DNA from: Akkermansiaceae bacterium
Lineage (GTDB): Bacteria; Verrucomicrobiota; Verrucomicrobiia; Verrucomicrobiales; Akkermansiaceae
DNA length: 47,717 nt
NCBI GenBank assembly: GCA_028822695.1
Contig: JAPKDA010000005.1
Location: forward strand, 1 to 47,717
Reading direction: 5' to 3'
Of the stretch, positions 4,762-47,623 are shown piece by piece. Below the pieces are notes generated by a model, which saw only the letters and a program-made list of their open reading frames with translations, was not told the origin of the DNA and ran no database searches. A program made the position numbers and the translations under genes. Each line of letters opens with the position of its first letter. Within the stretch, counting starts at the first letter, position 1.

Positions 4762-5536
4762 TGGAGTGCCCGGGGAGATCGACCCGTTGCGCGATGAGCG
4801 TGAAGACGGTGGCGTCTTCGAGAGGGGAGCCGTCTTCGGGGTCGAAGTTGACGATGGTTTGGTCGACCTTGAATCCGTGATCGGCGAGGACGGCGGTGAG
4901 TTCATCGGCTTCGAGCCAGTGGATGTTTTCGGAGCATTCGTGGGTTTCGAGGAGTTTGCCTGTCGGAGAGTGGAGGGCGTAGCGGTGCTCGCGGGTGAGG
5001 AGGCGGAACTCCGGGTCGAGGATGTGTTTGGTTTCGACGGTGGCGCGGGTTTCGTCGGGGAGGACGAGGTCGCGATCGGAGTACCATTCGTTCTCGGGGA
5101 CATCGCCGTCGAGTTCGGCGTGGGGGATGAAGGCGGTGAGATAGAGCCAGCCGTCCGGGTCGAGGGCGGTGCGGAGGGCGAGGAGGAGGCGGGAGGGGTC
5201 GGTGGCCAATTGGAAGGTGAAGGCGGGGATGCTGAGGGTGGCGTAGGTGTGGGGAAGTTCGAGGGATTCGATCTCGCCGTGGTAGAAGGTGGGCTTGAGG
5301 TTGAGAGGCTGGGCCTTTTCTCGGCCGAGTTCGAGCATGTCGGCGGAGAGGTCGATGCCTTCGATGTCCAGTCCGTCGGCAAGGAGGGGGAGGAGGAGTC
5401 GTGCGGAGCCGCAGCCGAGTTCGAGGGCGCGGCCGGGGTGGAGTTTGTGAAACTCTTTGAGCAGATCGAGTTCGCTTGGTCCTTCTTCGGCATCCCAGAA
5501 GACATCGTGAAGTTTTGCTTCGAGGTCGCGGTACAT
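4730..5536 (-). CDS. Class I SAM-dependent methyltransferase
   Basis: This 268-residue cytoplasmic protein has a Rossmann-type methyltransferase fold. Motif I ALELGCGSARLL (residues 37-48) binds SAM, and the acidic residue ending strand 2 is in IEGIDLS (58-64). A PHTYATLSIPAFTFQL segment at about 94-109 fits motifs II/III of the family. The C-terminal part (about 165-250) is beta-rich, as in small-molecule methyltransferases related to UbiE/COQ5 or TehB-like enzymes. The substrate cannot be predicted. It starts 8 bp after the antiporter stop codon on the same strand, so the two are probably cotranscribed. Its 3' end overlaps that of the convergent channel gene. Confidence 0.8.
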   Translation of the reverse strand: MYRDLEAKLHDVFWDAEEGPSELDLLKEFHKLHPGRALELGCGSARLLLPLLADGLDIEGIDLSADMLELGREKAQPLNLKPTFYHGEIESLELPHTYATLSIPAFTFQLATDPSRLLLALRTALDPDGWLYLTAFIPHAELDGDVPENEWYSDRDLVLPDETRATVETKHILDPEFRLLTREHRYALHSPTGKLLETHECSENIHWLEADELTAVLADHGFKVDQTIVNFDPEDGSPLEDATVFTLIAQRVDLPGHSISQPDAPSPA

Positions 5537-5544
5537 GGTCTTGG

Positions 5545-7401
5545 TCAGGAACCGCGCATGATCTCCTCCTCTGCGGAGGGCTTGGCGGGCTCGCTGGGGG
5601 TGATGAGAGAATAGATGGTGGTGCCCGGGACGATGTTTTCGAGGTCGGCGGGGGCGGGGCGTAGTTTGCGGCTTTCGTCGTGAAGGAAGAGGACGATGGC
5701 ATCCTCGCCGTAGGTCAGGGTGAAGTCCTCCAGAGTAAAGACGTCCGTGATTTGCGTTTTCTTGACGAGGGCGCCTTCGCGGGAGAGGGCGGTGAGCTTG
5801 GGGTAGGCGGGAGCTCCGCGGAAGCAGACGCGTCCGCGATTATGTGAGGCGACGGCATTGGTGTGGTGGGAGTTGCTGTCTTGGGGAGAGATTTGCCAGA
5901 CGTTGGCCTTGCCGAAGATGTGGGAGAACTCGCGGGTGGCGAGGGAGTTGATCTCGTCGTTGGGTGTCGCGGTGATGAGTTGGCCGATGCCAGAGAAGTC
6001 GAGTTCTTCCTCGGCGTACTCCGAGAGGATATTGGCGCGGACGGCGCGGAGGCCTTCGAGGCGGGCCGCGGCGATTTTTTCGTATTTGGTGTCGAGGAGG
6101 AGAACACTGTGGCCGTCATCTTGGAGAGCCTTGGCAATTTGGCGGATCCATTGATCGGCGCCGGCGAAGAGGACGCCGGTGGAATTCTTTGAGGCGAGGC
6201 CAAGGGCGCGGGCCATGGGCGCGGCGATGATGCCGTAGAGGAGGACCGTGGCGATGATGACGAGAAAGACGATGGGGACGAGTTGGTCGGCCTGTGCGGC
6301 GATGGACTCCGGAAGCGTTCCTTCGTGGGCGGCGTGTTGGAGTTCGATGGCGAAGATGGAGGTGACGGCGGCGGCGACGATTCCCCGGGGGGCGATTCCG
6401 GCGAGGAAGATGCGGTCTCGGAGGGTGAGGCGTTTGGAGAAGGTGGTGGCGATGAAGATGGATGCGGGGCGGGCGATGAGGATGAGTCCGCCGATGAAGA
6501 CCAGGCTGGGGATCAGGACCCCGCCGAGTGCGGAGGGGGCGATGCGGCCGGAGAGGAGGATGAAGAGGAGGGAAATGATGAGGACGCGGAGGTGTTCCTT
6601 AAAGGCGAGAATTTCGCGCACGGAGACCGTTTTCTGGTTGGCGAGGGCGATGCCGAGGACGGTGACGGTGAGGAGACCGGATTCTTGCTGGATGGCATTG
6701 GAGGCAGCGAAGGCTCCTCCGACGACGGCGAGAAGGAAGACGCTTTCCAAGAAGTCTGGGATGAGGTGGTGACGGAGGAGGAGTTCGATGATCTTTGCGA
6801 TGACGATGGCGAGGACGACGCCGACGAGGAGGGTCTTGCCGAGGAGGAGGAGGATGGTTTCGGTGGCGCTGCCGAATCCGCCGGCGACGGCGACTTGGAA
6901 GACGAGGACGGCGAGGATGGCGCCGATGGGGTCGACGACAATGCCTTCCCATTTAACAATGGAGGAGATCTTGCGAACCGGTTTGATGATACGGAGGAGG
7001 GGGCCGATGACGGTGGGGCCAGTGACGACGAGGATGGCGCCGAGAAGGGAGGCGACGGCCCAGTCGAACTTGAAGATGAGGTGGGCGAGAACAGCGGTGA
7101 CGACAAAGGAGACGACGACGCCGATGGAGCAGAGGCGAAGGACGGGGACGCCGGCTTCGCGGAGTTCGGAGAATTTGAGGGTGAGTCCCCCTTCGAAGAG
7201 GATGATGGCGACGAAGAGTCCGACGATGGCGAGGAGAACGTCCTGGCGGAGGTAATTGTCGATGTTGACGCCGGTGACGGCGGAAAGGCCGAAGCCGAAG
7301 GCGAGGAGGAGGAGAATGGAGGGAAGCTTGAGCCGCCAAGAGACCAGCTGGGCGAGAATGCCCAAGCCAAGGACGAGAACCAGGTAGGTCAGCGGTGCCA
7401 C
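5545..7401 (-). CDS. CPA-type Na+(K+)/H+ antiporter with C-terminal TrkA-N domain
   Basis: The N-terminal 400 residues form about 12 hydrophobic segments of a monovalent cation/proton antiporter. They contain the FEGGL signature (about residues 69-73), TGPTVIGPLL, the WEGIVVDPIG motif with the ion-binding Asp, and a late APRGIVAAAV segment. From about residue 410 a soluble Rossmann-like TrkA-N/RCK domain begins (TGVLFAGADQWIRQIAKAL) and is followed by a beta-rich TrkA-C-like tail. This layout is that of NhaP/KefC-like exchangers gated by nucleotide binding. At 618 residues the length fits. Start is GTG at 7401. It lies 92 bp downstream of a small lipoprotein gene and just upstream of the methyltransferase. 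The opposite strand carries long acidic open frames here, which I regard as compositional shadows. Confidence 0.88.
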   Translation of the reverse strand: MAPLTYLVLVLGLGILAQLVSWRLKLPSILLLLAFGFGLSAVTGVNIDNYLRQDVLLAIVGLFVAIILFEGGLTLKFSELREAGVPVLRLCSIGVVVSFVVTAVLAHLIFKFDWAVASLLGAILVVTGPTVIGPLLRIIKPVRKISSIVKWEGIVVDPIGAILAVLVFQVAVAGGFGSATETILLLLGKTLLVGVVLAIVIAKIIELLLRHHLIPDFLESVFLLAVVGGAFAASNAIQQESGLLTVTVLGIALANQKTVSVREILAFKEHLRVLIISLLFILLSGRIAPSALGGVLIPSLVFIGGLILIARPASIFIATTFSKRLTLRDRIFLAGIAPRGIVAAAVTSIFAIELQHAAHEGTLPESIAAQADQLVPIVFLVIIATVLLYGIIAAPMARALGLASKNSTGVLFAGADQWIRQIAKALQDDGHSVLLLDTKYEKIAAARLEGLRAVRANILSEYAEEELDFSGIGQLITATPNDEINSLATREFSHIFGKANVWQISPQDSNSHHTNAVASHNRGRVCFRGAPAYPKLTALSREGALVKKTQITDVFTLEDFTLTYGEDAIVLFLHDESRKLRPAPADLENIVPGTTIYSLITPSEPAKPSAEEEIMRGS

Positions 7402-7493
7402 GTGGCTACCTTGTACCGCGCGGGGCGCTCAGAGAATCAAGAAAATGTGGTAATCTGGAAAGATCGGCGACCGCCGATCGACTAGAAACCGCC

Positions 7494-7670
7494 TCAGGAA
7501 GAGCCGGAGCCGTAGCCTCCAGTGGGGGCGTAAATGGGAATGCCGCCGTTTGTGCGTATGGCATTGGAGGACGATGGCGAGGAGCAGGCGGAGAGGAGGG
7601 TGGCGATGAGGACACCGAGGAGGGTCAGGATTAGTTTTATAGGGTTGTCTTGGATCGGCGCGCTGGTCAT
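7494..7670 (-). CDS. Small predicted lipoprotein (58 aa)
   Basis: A short reading frame encodes 58 residues beginning MTSAPIQDNPIKLIL. A hydrophobic stretch (about residues 12-26) ends in the lipobox LLSAC with Cys29 as the predicted acylation site, and a Ser-rich linker and a short tail ending GGYGSGSS follow. It resembles the many tiny entericidin-like or orphan lipoproteins of Gram-negative bacteria, and I do not assign a function. It reads in the same direction as the antiporter gene 92 bp downstream and may share its transcript. The divergent dGTPase gene starts 91 bp away on the other side. Codon use on the minus strand matches the neighbours. Confidence 0.6.
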   Translation of the reverse strand: MTSAPIQDNPIKLILTLLGVLIATLLSACSSPSSSNAIRTNGGIPIYAPTGGYGSGSS

Positions 7671-7761
7671 TGGGCGGGGTGGAGCAGGGATTATTCCCCG
7701 ATTTTCGAAAAATGGGTAAAATGGGGTTTGCAGGCGGGGCTGGGGGCGTCACGAATGGGCA

Positions 7762-9051
7762 GTGCGAAACAGCTTTTACTCGGGATTTGATACGGAGCGG
7801 TTGTCGGGGCGGGCGACGGAGGGAGATTTTCGGACGCCATTTCAGATCGACCGCGATCGCGTCTTGCACACGCCGTCCTTCCGTCGATTGCAGAACAAGA
7901 CGCAGGTATTCTGGAGTGGTGAGTATGATTTTTATCGGACGCGTTTGACCCATTCATTGGAGGTGGCCCAGATCGGGCGGTCGATTTGCCATTGGTTGCA
8001 GGAGAACTCGGAAGCGTTAACGCCGGAGTACTTCATTGATTCGGAGTTGGTGGAGGCGGTGTGTTTGTCCCACGACCTGGGGCATCCTCCGTTCGGGCAT
8101 GCTGGGGAGCGGTCGTTGAACCACTTCATGAAGTCGTTCGGCGGGTTCGAGGGGAATGCGCAGACGCTGCGAATGTTGACGGAGCGGATTTTTTCGCAGC
8201 GTCGGCAGGGGATGGATCCTTCCCGGGCGTTTTTGGATGGGATTCTCAAGTACAAGTCCTTGTGGGCAGAGTTGCGGACGGCGGAGGGGAAGGAGCCGGG
8301 CAACCACTTCATTTATGATGCGCAGGCGAAGTATTTGGATTGGGCGATGGGCGGGCGGGATTTTCCGTTGGAGCTGACACCGGGTGAAGCGAGGGATGGG
8401 TTCAAATCGGTCGAGTGTCAGGTGATGGATTGGGCTGATGATACCGCCTATTCGTTGAATGATCTCGCGGACAGTGTGCAGGCCGGATTTCTGACGACGG
8501 AGAAGATTGAGGGTTGGGCGGAGCGGCGGGGGGTGCCGACCGGGGAGGGGACGCCCTTGGCTGATTTGCTCCGGGCGGTGAAGCGGGGGCGGATCGATGC
8601 ATTTTCCGGGAAGCGGATTGGGGATTACATCAAGGCGGCGAGCTTGGAGGAAGACGTCAACTTTTTGAGTGGAGAGAGTAGTCGATATCGATATCGGGTG
8701 GTGGTTGATCCCGAGGTGAGGGCCGAGAGCGAGGTCTTCAAGCAGTTGGCCTTTGAGGTGGTCTTCCTTTCTCCACAGCTGAAGCAGTTGGAGCACAAGG
8801 GGAGCATGATGTTGCGTCGGTTGTGGGAGGTTTTGGAGACGCGCTATGTGAAGGGTGAGTCGATTGACGGTCAGCGGTTTCAGTTGCTGCAAGCGGCGGA
8901 CGCTGCGGAGATCGAGGCGGCCGGGTCTGAGGATGAGAGGGCGCGGCTGGTGTGTGATTTTCTCGCGGGGATGACCGATGGGTTTGCGGCGAGGATGTAT
9001 CAGCGCTTGTTTGAGCCGGGGTATGGGTCGATTGGGGATTTGGTGGGTTAG
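7762..9051 (+). CDS. dgt: Deoxyguanosinetriphosphate triphosphohydrolase-like protein
   Basis: This 429-residue HD-domain protein removes triphosphate from dGTP or other dNTPs, influencing nucleotide pools and sometimes phage defence. The family signature is clear. An N-terminal TPFQIDRDRVLHTPSFRRL precedes the first metal ligand His64 in RLTHSLEV. The HD pair His104-Asp105 is in SHDLGHPPFGH, and the final Asp lies in MDWADDTAYS near residues 222-231. Length fits the type represented by Thermus and Pseudomonas dNTPases rather than the longer E. coli Dgt. The start is GTG at 7762. A nearby ATG at 7755 is out of frame. It is transcribed alone, divergent from the small lipoprotein gene, and its stop is followed at once by a gene-remnant region. 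Confidence 0.93.
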   Translation: MRNSFYSGFDTERLSGRATEGDFRTPFQIDRDRVLHTPSFRRLQNKTQVFWSGEYDFYRTRLTHSLEVAQIGRSICHWLQENSEALTPEYFIDSELVEAVCLSHDLGHPPFGHAGERSLNHFMKSFGGFEGNAQTLRMLTERIFSQRRQGMDPSRAFLDGILKYKSLWAELRTAEGKEPGNHFIYDAQAKYLDWAMGGRDFPLELTPGEARDGFKSVECQVMDWADDTAYSLNDLADSVQAGFLTTEKIEGWAERRGVPTGEGTPLADLLRAVKRGRIDAFSGKRIGDYIKAASLEEDVNFLSGESSRYRYRVVVDPEVRAESEVFKQLAFEVVFLSPQLKQLEHKGSMMLRRLWEVLETRYVKGESIDGQRFQLLQAADAAEIEAAGSEDERARLVCDFLAGMTDGFAARMYQRLFEPGYGSIGDLVG

Positions 9052-9054
9052 GTT

Positions 9055-9315
9055 TTGTGGTTTGCCAGATACGGTGCTGCTGGGCTAGCGCACACTAACT
9101 TCCCGGCCAATGCACTAGTGACCGTGACTTTGAAAGTGAATGGAGAGACGACCGTGGAGTTTACGGAGCCGGAGGGGTGGAAGGGAGCGAAGAAGAGCAT
9201 GAGTGGTCGGATGATCGGGAAAGGGACCTTTGCTTGGCAGGCGCACGATCCGGGGAGCACGGTGTTCTACAAGGAGATCCGAAGGGCGCACGGTTATGAG
9301 AACAAGGGTCGCTGA
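9055..9315 (+). pseudogene. C-terminal remnant of a DUF1080 (3-keto-disaccharide hydrolase-like) gene
   Basis: An open frame of about 86 codons matches only the C-terminal part of DUF1080 proteins. A VTLKVNGETTVEFTEPEGW segment corresponds to the usual LNGKTTVDYTEP region. It is followed by GKGTFAWQAHDPGSTVFYKEIR, split here as GKGTFAWQAH and DPGSTVFYKEIR, equivalent to the conserved ending GTFALQAHDPGSVVYFKNIR. The first half of the domain, the signal peptide and a plausible start are missing, because the dGTPase gene ends at 9051. I therefore read it as a decayed fragment. An intact paralogue of a different subtype is at 21025-21627. Confidence 0.6.
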
Positions 9316-43090: not shown

Positions 43091-43176
43091 AAGGTTTGGA
43101 TACGCCTTCCGGGCCAGAATGAAAACGGATTATTTGACATGTTTGGGATCTCGGGAAAAAGAGAGGGGTGAGCAGC

Positions 43177-43716
43177 GTGATTGGATACAAGGAATGGGAC
43201 GTGGTGTGTGAGGCTTTGGGCAGTGGGCGGCAGGCTCTGTTGCTGCGGAAAGGGGGAATTCATGAGGGGCGGGCCGGGTTTTCCTTCAAGCACGAGGATT
43301 TTGTCCTCTTTCCCACCCGATTTCACGCTCAGGGGGAGCAGGTGCGGGTGCCGTATGAGTTGTCGGGGGGCGAATGGGAGCCGGGTGAGGAGGTGCCGAT
43401 TCGCTATCGTTGTGAGGCGGTTTGGGCGCGGACCTTGACTGATTGGGATGTCGTGAAGCGTTTGGAGGGGTTTCACGTGTGGTCGGAGGATCTTGTCAGG
43501 GAGCGGTTTTCCTGGGGGGAGGAGGGGAGCATTCATTGCGCCCTGGTGAAAGTGTCCCGACTGGTGGAGCCATGGGCATTGCCTTACGAAAAGAAATTCG
43601 GCGGATGCCGGACCTGGGTGGAGCTGCCTGGCGGGGTGGGTGCGAGTGATCCTGTTCAGGAAGACGAGGAGTTCGCGGAGTTGGCCCGGCGCGTGGAGGA
43701 AATCGTCGGCGTTTAG
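43177..43716 (+). CDS. DUF1802 family protein
   Basis: This 179-residue protein belongs to DUF1802, a small cytoplasmic family without known function found in Cyanobacteria and other phyla. Recognisable features are the opening YKEWDVVCEALGSGRQALLLRKGGIHEG, here split as YKEWDVVCEALGSGRQ and ALLLRKGGIHEG, followed by FVLFPTRFHAQ and, later, the HVWSEDLVRERFSW segment. The basic KGGIHE motif and following histidines are the most conserved parts. I prefer GTG 43177 as the start because GAGG at 43163 lies about 10 nt upstream. GTG 43168 is also possible and adds three residues. It is divergent from metX and convergent with the coaX/ROK-remnant region, with its stop codon overlapping the end of the ROK remnant. 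Confidence 0.8.
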   Translation: MIGYKEWDVVCEALGSGRQALLLRKGGIHEGRAGFSFKHEDFVLFPTRFHAQGEQVRVPYELSGGEWEPGEEVPIRYRCEAVWARTLTDWDVVKRLEGFHVWSEDLVRERFSWGEEGSIHCALVKVSRLVEPWALPYEKKFGGCRTWVELPGGVGASDPVQEDEEFAELARRVEEIVGV

Positions 43717-43985
43717 ATCAGACCTGATTCCTCAAGAGCGATGCGAGCGGCGCCAAGCATGCCGGCTTCGTTGCCGAACTTTGCGGGAACGATCCGGAGG
43801 CCGTCCTTGAAAGGGGCACCGAGTTGAGCGCGGAGGTGAGACTCGAGTGGATCGAAAAGAACAGCTCCTGCTTTCGCGCCGCCGCCGATGAGTTCCGGGT
43901 TGAGCAGGTAGCAGCAGTTGAGGAGTGCGCAACTGAGTTTCTCAGCGATCCCTTTCCAGATTGAATTTGCGACAAGATCTCCCGC
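43713..43985 (-). pseudogene. C-terminal remnant of a ROK-family sugar kinase gene
   Basis: On the minus strand about 90 codons encode the last part of a ROK kinase. AGDLVANSIWKGIAEKL corresponds to the helix before the ATP-site region, ALLNCCYLLNPELIGGG is the conserved LNPExIxxGGG strand-turn, and the ending PAKFGNEAGMLGAARIAL is the signature C-terminus. The N-terminal two-thirds, including the catalytic Asp and the zinc-binding Cys cluster, are absent. The frame overlaps the 3' end of coaX in a different frame (coaX stops at 43942). A deletion joining the two genes is the simplest explanation. Confidence 0.75.
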
Positions 43986-44727
43986 TGTCCGGGGGGAAAT
44001 TTGAGGTGGCGATGCGCCAGATTCCTTCCAAGGTGAGATCGGCGGCGAGGTGGGAGATTTCGGGAAGTCCTTTGGAAATCAAGGCAGCGTCTCCCCCTGT
44101 GGCAATGACGGTTGGATCGGCGTCGAGGTCTTCGCGGATGCCGAGGAGGATCTCGCGAATCATGCCGCGATAGCCGAGGACCGCGCCGACTTGCATGGCG
44201 TGAACGGTGGACTTGCCGATGGCGGAGTCCGGCTCCTTCAGATCGATTTGGGGGAGAAGGGCGGTGCGCGTGGCGAGGTTCTCGGTCATGGTGGCGAGAC
44301 CGGGGGCGATCACGCCGCCGAGGTAGGAGCCGGGAGCACCGATGACGTCGAAGGTCACCGCAGTGCCGAAGTCGATGACGACGGATGGTGCGCCGAAGCG
44401 GGCGTGGGCGGCGACGGCGTTGGCGAGTCGGTCTGCGCCGATTTGTTCCGGTGTCGGGTAGTCGATTTCGATGGAGAGTTTGCTGTGGCAGGAGACGGTG
44501 TCGACGGCGGATCGCTGTTCCAGCCATGATTGCATGAGCGTGGATTTTTTCGGGACTACCGAGCAGATCATGGAATGGGTGAACTCAAGATCGCCGAGAA
44601 GGGTCTCCATGCGTTCTGCGGAAAGCTCTTGGGTGGGGGTGATGGCGTTCCATTCCAGCAGCCCATCGCGATCAGCGAGGCGGAACTTGGTGCGGGTATT
44701 GGAGTTGTCGATGAGGAGAAAGACCAT
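43942..44727 (-). CDS. coaX: Type III pantothenate kinase, C-terminus altered
   Basis: CoaX phosphorylates pantothenate, the first step of coenzyme A synthesis, and unlike CoaA is not feedback-inhibited. The 261-residue protein has the ASKHA-fold motifs: phosphate-1 loop LLIDNSNTRTK (4-14), the catalytic Asp99 in QIGADRLANAV and the second phosphate loop VIDFGTAVTFD (117-127). It also has the glycine-rich GGVIAPGL and the late ATGGDA motif. I start it at ATG 44727. An upstream start would add 12 residues before the first motif. The last 20 or so residues (from about SNFPPDSG) do not resemble CoaX and are read through the ROK-remnant DNA in another frame, so the native tail was probably lost. 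The core looks intact. Confidence 0.88.
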   Translation of the reverse strand: MVFLLIDNSNTRTKFRLADRDGLLEWNAITPTQELSAERMETLLGDLEFTHSMICSVVPKKSTLMQSWLEQRSAVDTVSCHSKLSIEIDYPTPEQIGADRLANAVAAHARFGAPSVVIDFGTAVTFDVIGAPGSYLGGVIAPGLATMTENLATRTALLPQIDLKEPDSAIGKSTVHAMQVGAVLGYRGMIREILLGIREDLDADPTVIATGGDAALISKGLPEISHLAADLTLEGIWRIATSNFPPDSGRSCRKFNLERDR

Positions 44728-44760: not shown

Positions 44761-44797
44761 CAAACAAAAACGGCTGCGGGAGAACCCGCAGCCGTTT
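44761..44797 (-). terminator. Intrinsic terminator of the minus-strand ammonium transporter
   Basis: A 13-bp perfect stem (44768-44780 with 44785-44797, loop of 4) is followed, on the minus strand, by a T-rich tract. It lies 23 bp after the amt stop at 44821 and just upstream of coaX. Confidence 0.9.
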
Positions 44798-44820: not shown

Positions 44821-46176
44821 TTAGTCTGAGTAGGCCGGAGAACCGTGCTCGGCGACATCGAGACCCTCGTTTTCTTCCTCTTCGCTGACGCGAACGCCCA
44901 TGATGAGCTTGAGGATGAAGAATACGACGAAGGAGAAGATGAAGGCCCAGGCGGAGATGGTCACCGTGCCGAGCAACTGAGTGCCGAAGCTGAGGGACTC
45001 GCTTCCTCCGTTGAAGAAGGGCAGTCCAACGGCCAGGGTGCCCCAGATCCCGCAGATCCCGTGCACCGAGATCGCTCCGACTGGATCGTCGATCTTGATT
45101 TTGTCAAAGAAGAGGATGGAGAATACCACGAGCGCTCCGGCGATGAGTCCGATGATGGCGGCAGCTCCGATCGTGACGCTGTCGGCGCCAGCGGTGATGC
45201 CCACAAGACCGGCCAGAATTCCGTTAAGAGCCATGGAGAGGTCAGGCTTCTTCAGGGTGACCCTGGAAGTGATCATCGCGGAGAACCCACCGAAGGCTGC
45301 GGCGATTGCGGTAGTTACGCAAACGTAGGAGACGAGGACTGGATCAGCATTGAGCACTGAACCGCCGTTGAATCCGAACCAACCGAACCAGAGGAGGAAG
45401 ACACCGATGACAGCGAGAGGCATGCTGTGTCCGAGGATCGGCTTGGTGCCTTCCTTGGTGTATTTTCCTTTGCGAGGCCCGAGGACGAGCACACAGGCGA
45501 GGGCGGCGAAGCCACCGAAGGCGTGCACCACACTGGATCCAGCGAAGTCATAGAAGCCCTTTTGGTCGAGCCAGCCAGCACCCCATTTCCACGAACCGGA
45601 GATCGGGTAGGCAATGCCAACGAGGAGGGTTGCGAAGATCATGAAGCTGCTGAGCTTTACGCGCTCCGCAACAGCACCAGACACGATTGTTGCAGCAGTA
45701 GCTGCGAACATGGCCTGGAAGAGGAAGTCGGTCCAAACGGTCATATCGAGTGCGTATCCACCTGGGGTCACGAGGCTCGGATCAGCCACTGCGTCCATGG
45801 ACGGAATGAAGAAGCCGGCAAATTTGAGGATGCCCTCTCCTTCACCGAATGCTGGATACATCAGATTAAATCCACCGATGTAGTAGGTGATGATGCCCAT
45901 GCAGATGATGAACACGTTCTTAAAGAGAACGTTCACGGTATTCTTCTTCTGGCAGAGGCCGGACTCCAGTGAGGAGAATCCAAGGTGCATGGTGAAGACT
46001 AGGAATGCCGCGATCAGGACCCAGAGGTTGTCTACCCTGAAGTTTGAGGCGGCACTGGCGGTGGCATTGAATTCTTCTAATACCATGGCTGGATCTTCCT
46101 CTGCTGCGAAGGCCGTCGCTGCGAGGGCGAAGGGCGATGCGAGAAGGAAGAATCGGTTAATGAGGTTACGACGCAT
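44821..46176 (-). CDS. amt: Ammonium transporter (Amt), first copy
   Basis: This 451-residue inner-membrane protein moves ammonium through a trimeric channel. A signal-peptide-like N-terminus (residues 1-24) is followed by about 11 membrane segments. The twin-histidine pore motif is present as VVHAFGG and ISVHGICGIWG. The conserved DFAGSSVVHAFGG, FGWFGFNGGS and the ending GLDVAEHGSPAYSD, the C-terminal motif that couples the subunits, are all seen. It has the long first loop typical of members near the methylammonium-permease type. No glnK/glnB gene lies in this window. It is divergent from a second amt gene with a 166-bp gap that should hold both promoters. Confidence 0.94.
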   Translation of the reverse strand: MRRNLINRFFLLASPFALAATAFAAEEDPAMVLEEFNATASAASNFRVDNLWVLIAAFLVFTMHLGFSSLESGLCQKKNTVNVLFKNVFIICMGIITYYIGGFNLMYPAFGEGEGILKFAGFFIPSMDAVADPSLVTPGGYALDMTVWTDFLFQAMFAATAATIVSGAVAERVKLSSFMIFATLLVGIAYPISGSWKWGAGWLDQKGFYDFAGSSVVHAFGGFAALACVLVLGPRKGKYTKEGTKPILGHSMPLAVIGVFLLWFGWFGFNGGSVLNADPVLVSYVCVTTAIAAAFGGFSAMITSRVTLKKPDLSMALNGILAGLVGITAGADSVTIGAAAIIGLIAGALVVFSILFFDKIKIDDPVGAISVHGICGIWGTLAVGLPFFNGGSESLSFGTQLLGTVTISAWAFIFSFVVFFILKLIMGVRVSEEEENEGLDVAEHGSPAYSD

Positions 46177-46342
46177 AGTTGTGTTGGATAGGTTGGTAGT
46201 GATCTAGAGCGGGTGAGCATGGGGCGTGCCAAGTTTGGGGGAGGGGCGAAAAAAGCAAAATATGCGGAGTCTGGAAATTGAAATCGCTTTGTGCTTTGCA
46301 TCTAGGGTTTCAGCCTTTGAGATGCCACGCATGGCACAGCAC

Positions 46343-47623
46343 ATGAAAAAAATTCAAATTTTGGTGACGGCTCTCGCAATGTTGGTGCTTTCGACCGGAG
46401 TGGCCGGAGCGCAGGGAGAAGAACCCGCCTTGAGCGCAGGAGATACCTCTTGGATGCTGGTGGCGACGGTGCTGGTCCTCCTGATGACCCTTCCCGGGTT
46501 GGCCCTTTTCTACGGAGGCCTCGTGCGGGCGAAGAATGTGCTGTCGATCTTGATGCAGTGTTTCGTGCTCGCGGCGGTGATGACAATCATCTGGATCGTC
46601 TACGGCTATTCCCTCGCGGCAGGAGAGGGTGGTAAGTTCTTTGGAGACTTCAGCATGGTGATGCTGAACCACATGACGGCTGATAGCTTGAGTGGGACGA
46701 TCCCGGAGAGCGTCTTCGTCACCTTTCAGATGACCTTCATCATCATCACGCCGGCCTTGATCGTGGGCGCCTTTGCGGAGCGGATGAAATTTAGTGCGAT
46801 GCTGATCTTTACGATTCTGTGGACCACCTTTTCCTATCTCCCCATCTGGCACATGGCTTGGGGTGGCGGACTGTTCGCGGATTGGAAGGTGATTGATTTT
46901 GCGGGTGGAACAGTGGTGCACATCAATGCGGGGGTGGCGGCCCTTGTGGCGTGCATCATGATCGGAAAGCGCAAGGGCTATCCGGGGACGAGCCTGACAC
47001 CACACAACGTGCCGTTCACCGTGATTGGAGCGGCTTTACTCTGGGTAGGTTGGTTTGGATTCAATGCGGGAAGCGAGCTGGCAGCGGATGGGGTAGCGGG
47101 ATTTGCCATGCTCACCACGCAGATTGCGACTGGTGCGGCAGTGATCGGTTGGTTGCTTCTTGAGTGGATCATTTCCAAGAAGCCCACTGCGGTGGGTGCG
47201 GCGACAGGTGCGGTAGCCGGGTTGGTTGCGATCACTCCGGCGTCGGGCTCGACGACCGTGACTGGCGCGCTGGTGATCGGATTCGCTTCGGCAATCGCCT
47301 GTTACTTCTGCGCCACAAGTTTGAAGCGGGCCCTTGGCTATGACGACAGCCTTGATGTCTTTGGCGTCCACGGCGTGGGGGGGATCATTGGAGCCATTCT
47401 GACGGGTGTCTTTCTGCGGGAAGTGCCTGATCACGGCGTGTTGACCCAGGTCTTGATCCAGTTCAAAAGTGTCGGCGTGACCATCGTCTGGAGTGGAGTT
47501 GTGGCCTTTGTCGCTCTGACCATCGCCAAATACACGGTGGGTCTGCGGGTTTCCGAGGAAGAAGAGGATCATGGCCTCGATCAATCGTCGCACGGAGAAA
47601 CGGCCTACACGCTTGATTCCTGA
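46343..47623 (+). CDS. amt: Ammonium transporter (Amt), second copy
   Basis: This 426-residue protein is a second Amt of a different subtype. A signal peptide (MKKIQILVTALAMLVLSTGVAGAQ) precedes GDTSWMLVATVLVLLMTLPGLALFYGGLVRAKNVLS, the classical Amt opening, here given as two adjacent parts GDTSWMLVATVLVLL and MTLPGLALFYGGLV. The twin histidines are in FAGGTVVHINAG and DVFGVHGVGG. The protein ends in the GLDQSSHGETAY motif. I chose ATG 46343 because it puts the signal peptide at the N-terminus. Upstream in-frame starts (46226, 46322, 46331) add charged residues. It resembles E. coli AmtB in layout more than its neighbour does. A terminator follows 27 bp after the stop. The divergent pair probably shares nitrogen control, though no sigma54 site was recognised. 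Confidence 0.94.
   Translation: MKKIQILVTALAMLVLSTGVAGAQGEEPALSAGDTSWMLVATVLVLLMTLPGLALFYGGLVRAKNVLSILMQCFVLAAVMTIIWIVYGYSLAAGEGGKFFGDFSMVMLNHMTADSLSGTIPESVFVTFQMTFIIITPALIVGAFAERMKFSAMLIFTILWTTFSYLPIWHMAWGGGLFADWKVIDFAGGTVVHINAGVAALVACIMIGKRKGYPGTSLTPHNVPFTVIGAALLWVGWFGFNAGSELAADGVAGFAMLTTQIATGAAVIGWLLLEWIISKKPTAVGAATGAVAGLVAITPASGSTTVTGALVIGFASAIACYFCATSLKRALGYDDSLDVFGVHGVGGIIGAILTGVFLREVPDHGVLTQVLIQFKSVGVTIVWSGVVAFVALTIAKYTVGLRVSEEEEDHGLDQSSHGETAYTLDS

Follow-up and report, generated by a model that had tools for sequence, protein, structure and literature searches.

The coaX frame of this Akkermansiaceae contig runs directly into codons of a ROK kinase, which raises the question of how the tail of one gene came to lie behind, and partly inside, another, and what became of both. 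The window (the whole stretch of DNA analysed, 47,717 nt) is one entire contig. A first-pass annotation, made from its letters alone, had read the arrangement as a deletion scar joining coaX to the tail of a ROK gene in a different frame, and had hinted that coaX itself was damaged. The features concerned are collected in Table 1.

Table 1 Features at the coaX–ROK junction and around it, in window coordinates
Feature	Position	Strand	Basis or detail
DUF1802 gene, convergent	43168–43716	forward	PF08819, 4.1e-45
ROK kinase C-terminal remnant, ~90 codons	43713–43979	reverse	PF00480, TIGR00744, match to ROK of the genus-mate G001
Second deletion within the remnant, 9 nt, in frame	43884–43892 (approximate)	reverse	LNPELI---GGG vs LNPEIIVIGGG
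coaX, type III pantothenate kinase	43942–44727	reverse	ATG start, 261 aa; PF03309, TIGR00671, orthologue alignments
25-nt junction, last coaX-shared block to first ROK-shared block vs G001	43980–44004	reverse	
Ammonium-transporter-like gene upstream of coaX	44821–46176	reverse	named by reading the sequence, without family search

The ROK identity of the codons behind coaX, as first annotated, is borne out by profile and pairwise searches. The Pfam ROK profile (PF00480) matched them above its cut-off (8.5e-6) over positions 205–293 of 294, and the NCBIfam profile TIGR00744 did so at 7.2e-8 with 32 bits, a score far under the cut-off set for whole proteins, which is to be expected of a fragment. 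The remnant is 76% identical (9.4e-40) to the ROK protein of G001, the one genus-mate compared; the match is far beyond chance, and a chance resemblance is excluded. The ROK frame lies +1 to the coaX frame (one base downstream), partly inside the coaX reading frame, and is open for its whole length down to a TAA stop at 43713–43715, its sole in-frame start being an ATG 15 codons short of that stop, at 43760. The N-terminal ATP- and sugar-binding part (ROK residues 1 to ~221 of 314) is absent. Within what is left, the 9-nt deletion breaks the IIIGGG motif and removes two columns that are invariant in all 27 other orthologues. Over 26 conserved tail columns the window keeps 22 and departs in four, of which two belong to the 9-nt deletion and one borders the break; G001 departs in one. 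Outside the IIIGGG motif the remnant is well conserved. On these features it is predicted to be a decaying pseudogene, not translated as a kinase.

The genus-mate provides the intact counterpart. Its pair (G001:C317) resembles the window in the order of an ammonium-transporter-like gene, coaX, ROK and a convergent DUF1802 gene (transporter and DUF1802 named by their resemblance to the window's genes), and in sequence, with coaX 74% and the ROK tail 76% identical. It differs in that its coaX (244 aa from ATG) has its own stop, followed by a 59-nt spacer, and its ROK gene is complete (314 aa). In the window the DUF1802 stop overlaps that of the ROK remnant, and the DUF1802 counterpart in G001 overlaps the end of ROK likewise. 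Between the shared coaX and ROK blocks lie 740 nt in G001 vs 25 nt in the window, the missing DNA comprising the end of coaX with its stop, the spacer and the N-terminal part of ROK named above; the deletion scar proposed in the first-pass annotation thus stands. The junction contains a run of six C (CCCCCC), and its 25 nt can be assigned to neither coaX, spacer nor ROK, so microhomology is not claimed. On the far side of coaX, two divergent ammonium-transporter-like genes adjoin in the window, one at 44821–46176 on the minus strand and one, likewise named from reading, at 46226–47623 on the plus strand.

The hint of a damaged coaX did not hold. PF03309 matched the window CoaX at 1.1e-51 over profile positions 1–202 of 205, that is, with the full Pan_kinase domain present, TIGR00671 scored 170.9 bits (cut-off 58.2), and, of 81 columns conserved across 90% or more of the other orthologues, the window protein retains 79. 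Damage by the deletion was therefore rejected, the domain being complete by profile, conserved columns, alignments and structural model alike. The 29 family orthologues, 240–253 aa long, can be aligned up to residue ~243 of the 261 and stop at about that point, which gives a complete core of residues 1 to ~243. The remaining ~18 C-terminal residues are out-of-family and were gained with the loss of the stop; reading now ends at a TGA at 43942–43944 (an alternative TTG start at 44763 would give 273 aa). The first reading, which had the C-terminus from about residue 240 read from ROK DNA and unlike other CoaX proteins, was accordingly right about a novel end, but the family alignment reaches ~243 and only about the last 12 of the new residues are read from ROK DNA proper. 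That the tail might be common to other CoaX proteins was also rejected, as the alignments of L074 and L077 through residue 261 cross stop codons. A rough AlphaFold2 model built on 10 sequences (mean pLDDT 71, with weak stretches at 85–95 and 143–180) places the last helix at 231–243 and gives residues 248–261 a pLDDT below 50. This coaX is the sole coaX match in its genome, in which a TIGR00554 search for a type I pantothenate kinase gave no match. CoaX very probably still functions, and the protein would end in a short disordered tail.

An intact ROK gene beside coaX, which the first-pass annotation had thought worth seeking in close relatives, is widespread. With adjacency defined as a ROK gene of the same orientation no more than 400 nt behind coaX, it was found directly downstream in 34 of 57 genomes: 22 of the 35 from the family (G001 included) and 12 of the 22 from elsewhere in the order. 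The 23 genomes without adjacency include six lacking a coaX match (G004, G037, G045, G051, G054 and G057), some in which the two genes lie apart, and G043, with 743 nt between the two. In 53 of the 57 relatives a ROK match reached 45% identity or more. The window's fused arrangement, whose presence in relatives the earlier reading had regarded as evidence against a scar, was not seen in any relative among the loci listed. ROK kinases usually carry the cysteine zinc motif CxCGxxGCxE; at its usual place one coaX-linked ROK (L005:2295–3239) reads RKGAYGNLGALDDYIG and seems to be without the zinc site.

The enzyme encoded by the intact gene is likely a glucokinase, to judge from its matches: the orthologue scored best with the ROK glucokinase profile TIGR00744 (192 bits against a curated cut-off of 260) and resembles solved glucokinases (3vgk, 1.8e-42). 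Besides the remnant, the PF00480 search of the window's genome returned two other ROK genes, one of them weakly matched by G001 ROK (37% over part). Neither qualified as a full copy of the lost gene: C46 scored best with the fructokinase ScrK and C119 with TIGR00744, both below curated cut-offs. A PF02685 glucokinase gave no match in this genome. The scar suggests that the organism has lost a glucokinase-like enzyme, one that is matched at 45% identity or more in those 53 of 57 relatives.

We consider it highly likely that the locus holds a deletion-made ROK pseudogene remnant beside a coaX with an intact core. The ancestral order would have been that of G001, namely ammonium-transporter-like gene, coaX, glucokinase-like ROK gene and convergent DUF1802. 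A deletion of ~0.7 kb, from the end of coaX to about ROK codon 222, would have taken the spacer together with the stop of coaX and the start and N-terminal two thirds of ROK, and an additional 9-nt deletion would have occurred within the remnant. CoaX would still be made, now with its short disordered tail, and the ROK remnant would be left to decay as a pseudogene. We infer that the deletion was a single event and that it was recent, the latter because the remnant outside the IIIGGG motif is still well conserved; recent loss looks to be the simplest reading of that conservation. Third-position G+C is 0.61 in the tail vs 0.70–0.79 in five window genes, coaX included. Beyond this and the two deletions there are few signs of decay, which counts against the pseudogene reading. 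Codon models with six and three taxa, in which synonymous sites were saturated, gave a window-branch omega of 0.01–0.02, which is not raised, and a wholly neutral window branch fitted worse (likelihood-ratio statistics 7.9 and 4.6; a weak test given the same saturation). Strictly, there is still room for selection on the remnant tail.

The low omega and the well-kept tail would also suit a +1 frameshift at the six-C run, by which CoaX and the ROK tail would be made as one protein and the tail kept for a structural role: the ROK frame is indeed +1 to that of coaX, the CCCCCC run sits at the junction, and the tail is open throughout and conserved but for one motif. We regard this as very improbable, however, since the arrangement is absent from the relatives seen, the glycine motif of the tail is broken and the N-terminal two thirds of the kinase are gone, and recent loss explains the tail's conservation equally well. 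An origin of the tail elsewhere, in another ROK gene or another organism, is more improbable still: no supporting point was found, its closest match is the genus-mate's local ROK (76%), and it sits at the orthologous place with the same end overlap with DUF1802.

An artefact of assembly or a mixture of strains, in which the stretch was collapsed or mis-joined and the cell has a full ROK gene, would be in keeping with a fragmented assembly (2.69 Mb in 226 contigs, 94.7% complete), but we judge it unlikely. Searches with PF00480 and G001 ROK found, at their sensitivity, neither a full nor an N-terminal copy of the coaX-linked ROK on any other contig of this 94.7%-complete assembly. The flanking coaX and DUF1802 genes are intact and in their usual order, and the remnant bears its separate 9-nt deletion; with two distinct lesions, a simple collapse during assembly is less plausible. 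The deletion-made remnant is, in our reading, a real case of ordinary gene decay.

Genome by genome, the same gene was found broken or without a close match elsewhere too, indicating that loss of this ROK is not peculiar to the window. At L073 (CAMDLP010000014.1, genome G058; 5773–5984) only the first ~51 ROK codons follow coaX before stops, with a superoxide-dismutase-like ORF (by reading) beyond them; the best other ROK of that genome is 35% identical, with no close orthologue elsewhere in it. As in the window, coaX at this same locus is intact and the ROK gene next to it broken, but N-terminal codons are kept there and C-terminal codons in the window, marking an independent event. At L078 (G059; 5001–9132) a ROK fragment of ~55 codons comes after coaX, and beyond it lie an oppositely oriented ammonium-transporter-like ORF and then an intact ROK. 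What looks like the end of coaX is repeated ahead of that intact ROK, and the stretch probably bears the scar of a duplication. No close ROK orthologue was found in G060–G063 or in G016 (96% complete), and none of at least 45% identity in G047, G005 or G017. Around nine coaX loci without an adjacent ROK, a search within 1.5 kb for further remnants gave no match better than E = 0.05. Drawing on the C-terminal remnant in the window, the N-terminal one in G058, the partial duplicate in G059 and the lack of a close orthologue in G016 and G060–G063, we tentatively suggest, at somewhat less than even odds, that the coaX-linked ROK has long accompanied coaX in the order and has been lost time and again in the family; it would then be a dispensable partner, and losing it would mark a changed use of sugars. 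Recurring breaks at this gene may be of interest for studies of gene loss in Verrucomicrobiota.

For the genome itself, the outcome is a corrected annotation, with a CoaX carrying ~18 spurious residues and a ROK pseudogene behind it, and it has little import beyond that genome. The accessible parts of the matches listed in literature searches on coaX with ROK, fusion by deletion, Verrucomicrobia glucokinase/ROK and type III pantothenate kinase pseudogenes do not describe the locus. Its type is familiar. In deletion-derived bacterial pseudogenes, a deletion across two neighbours leaves the first gene reading through into a truncated second, and from such pseudogenes in general the window's locus does not differ in kind.
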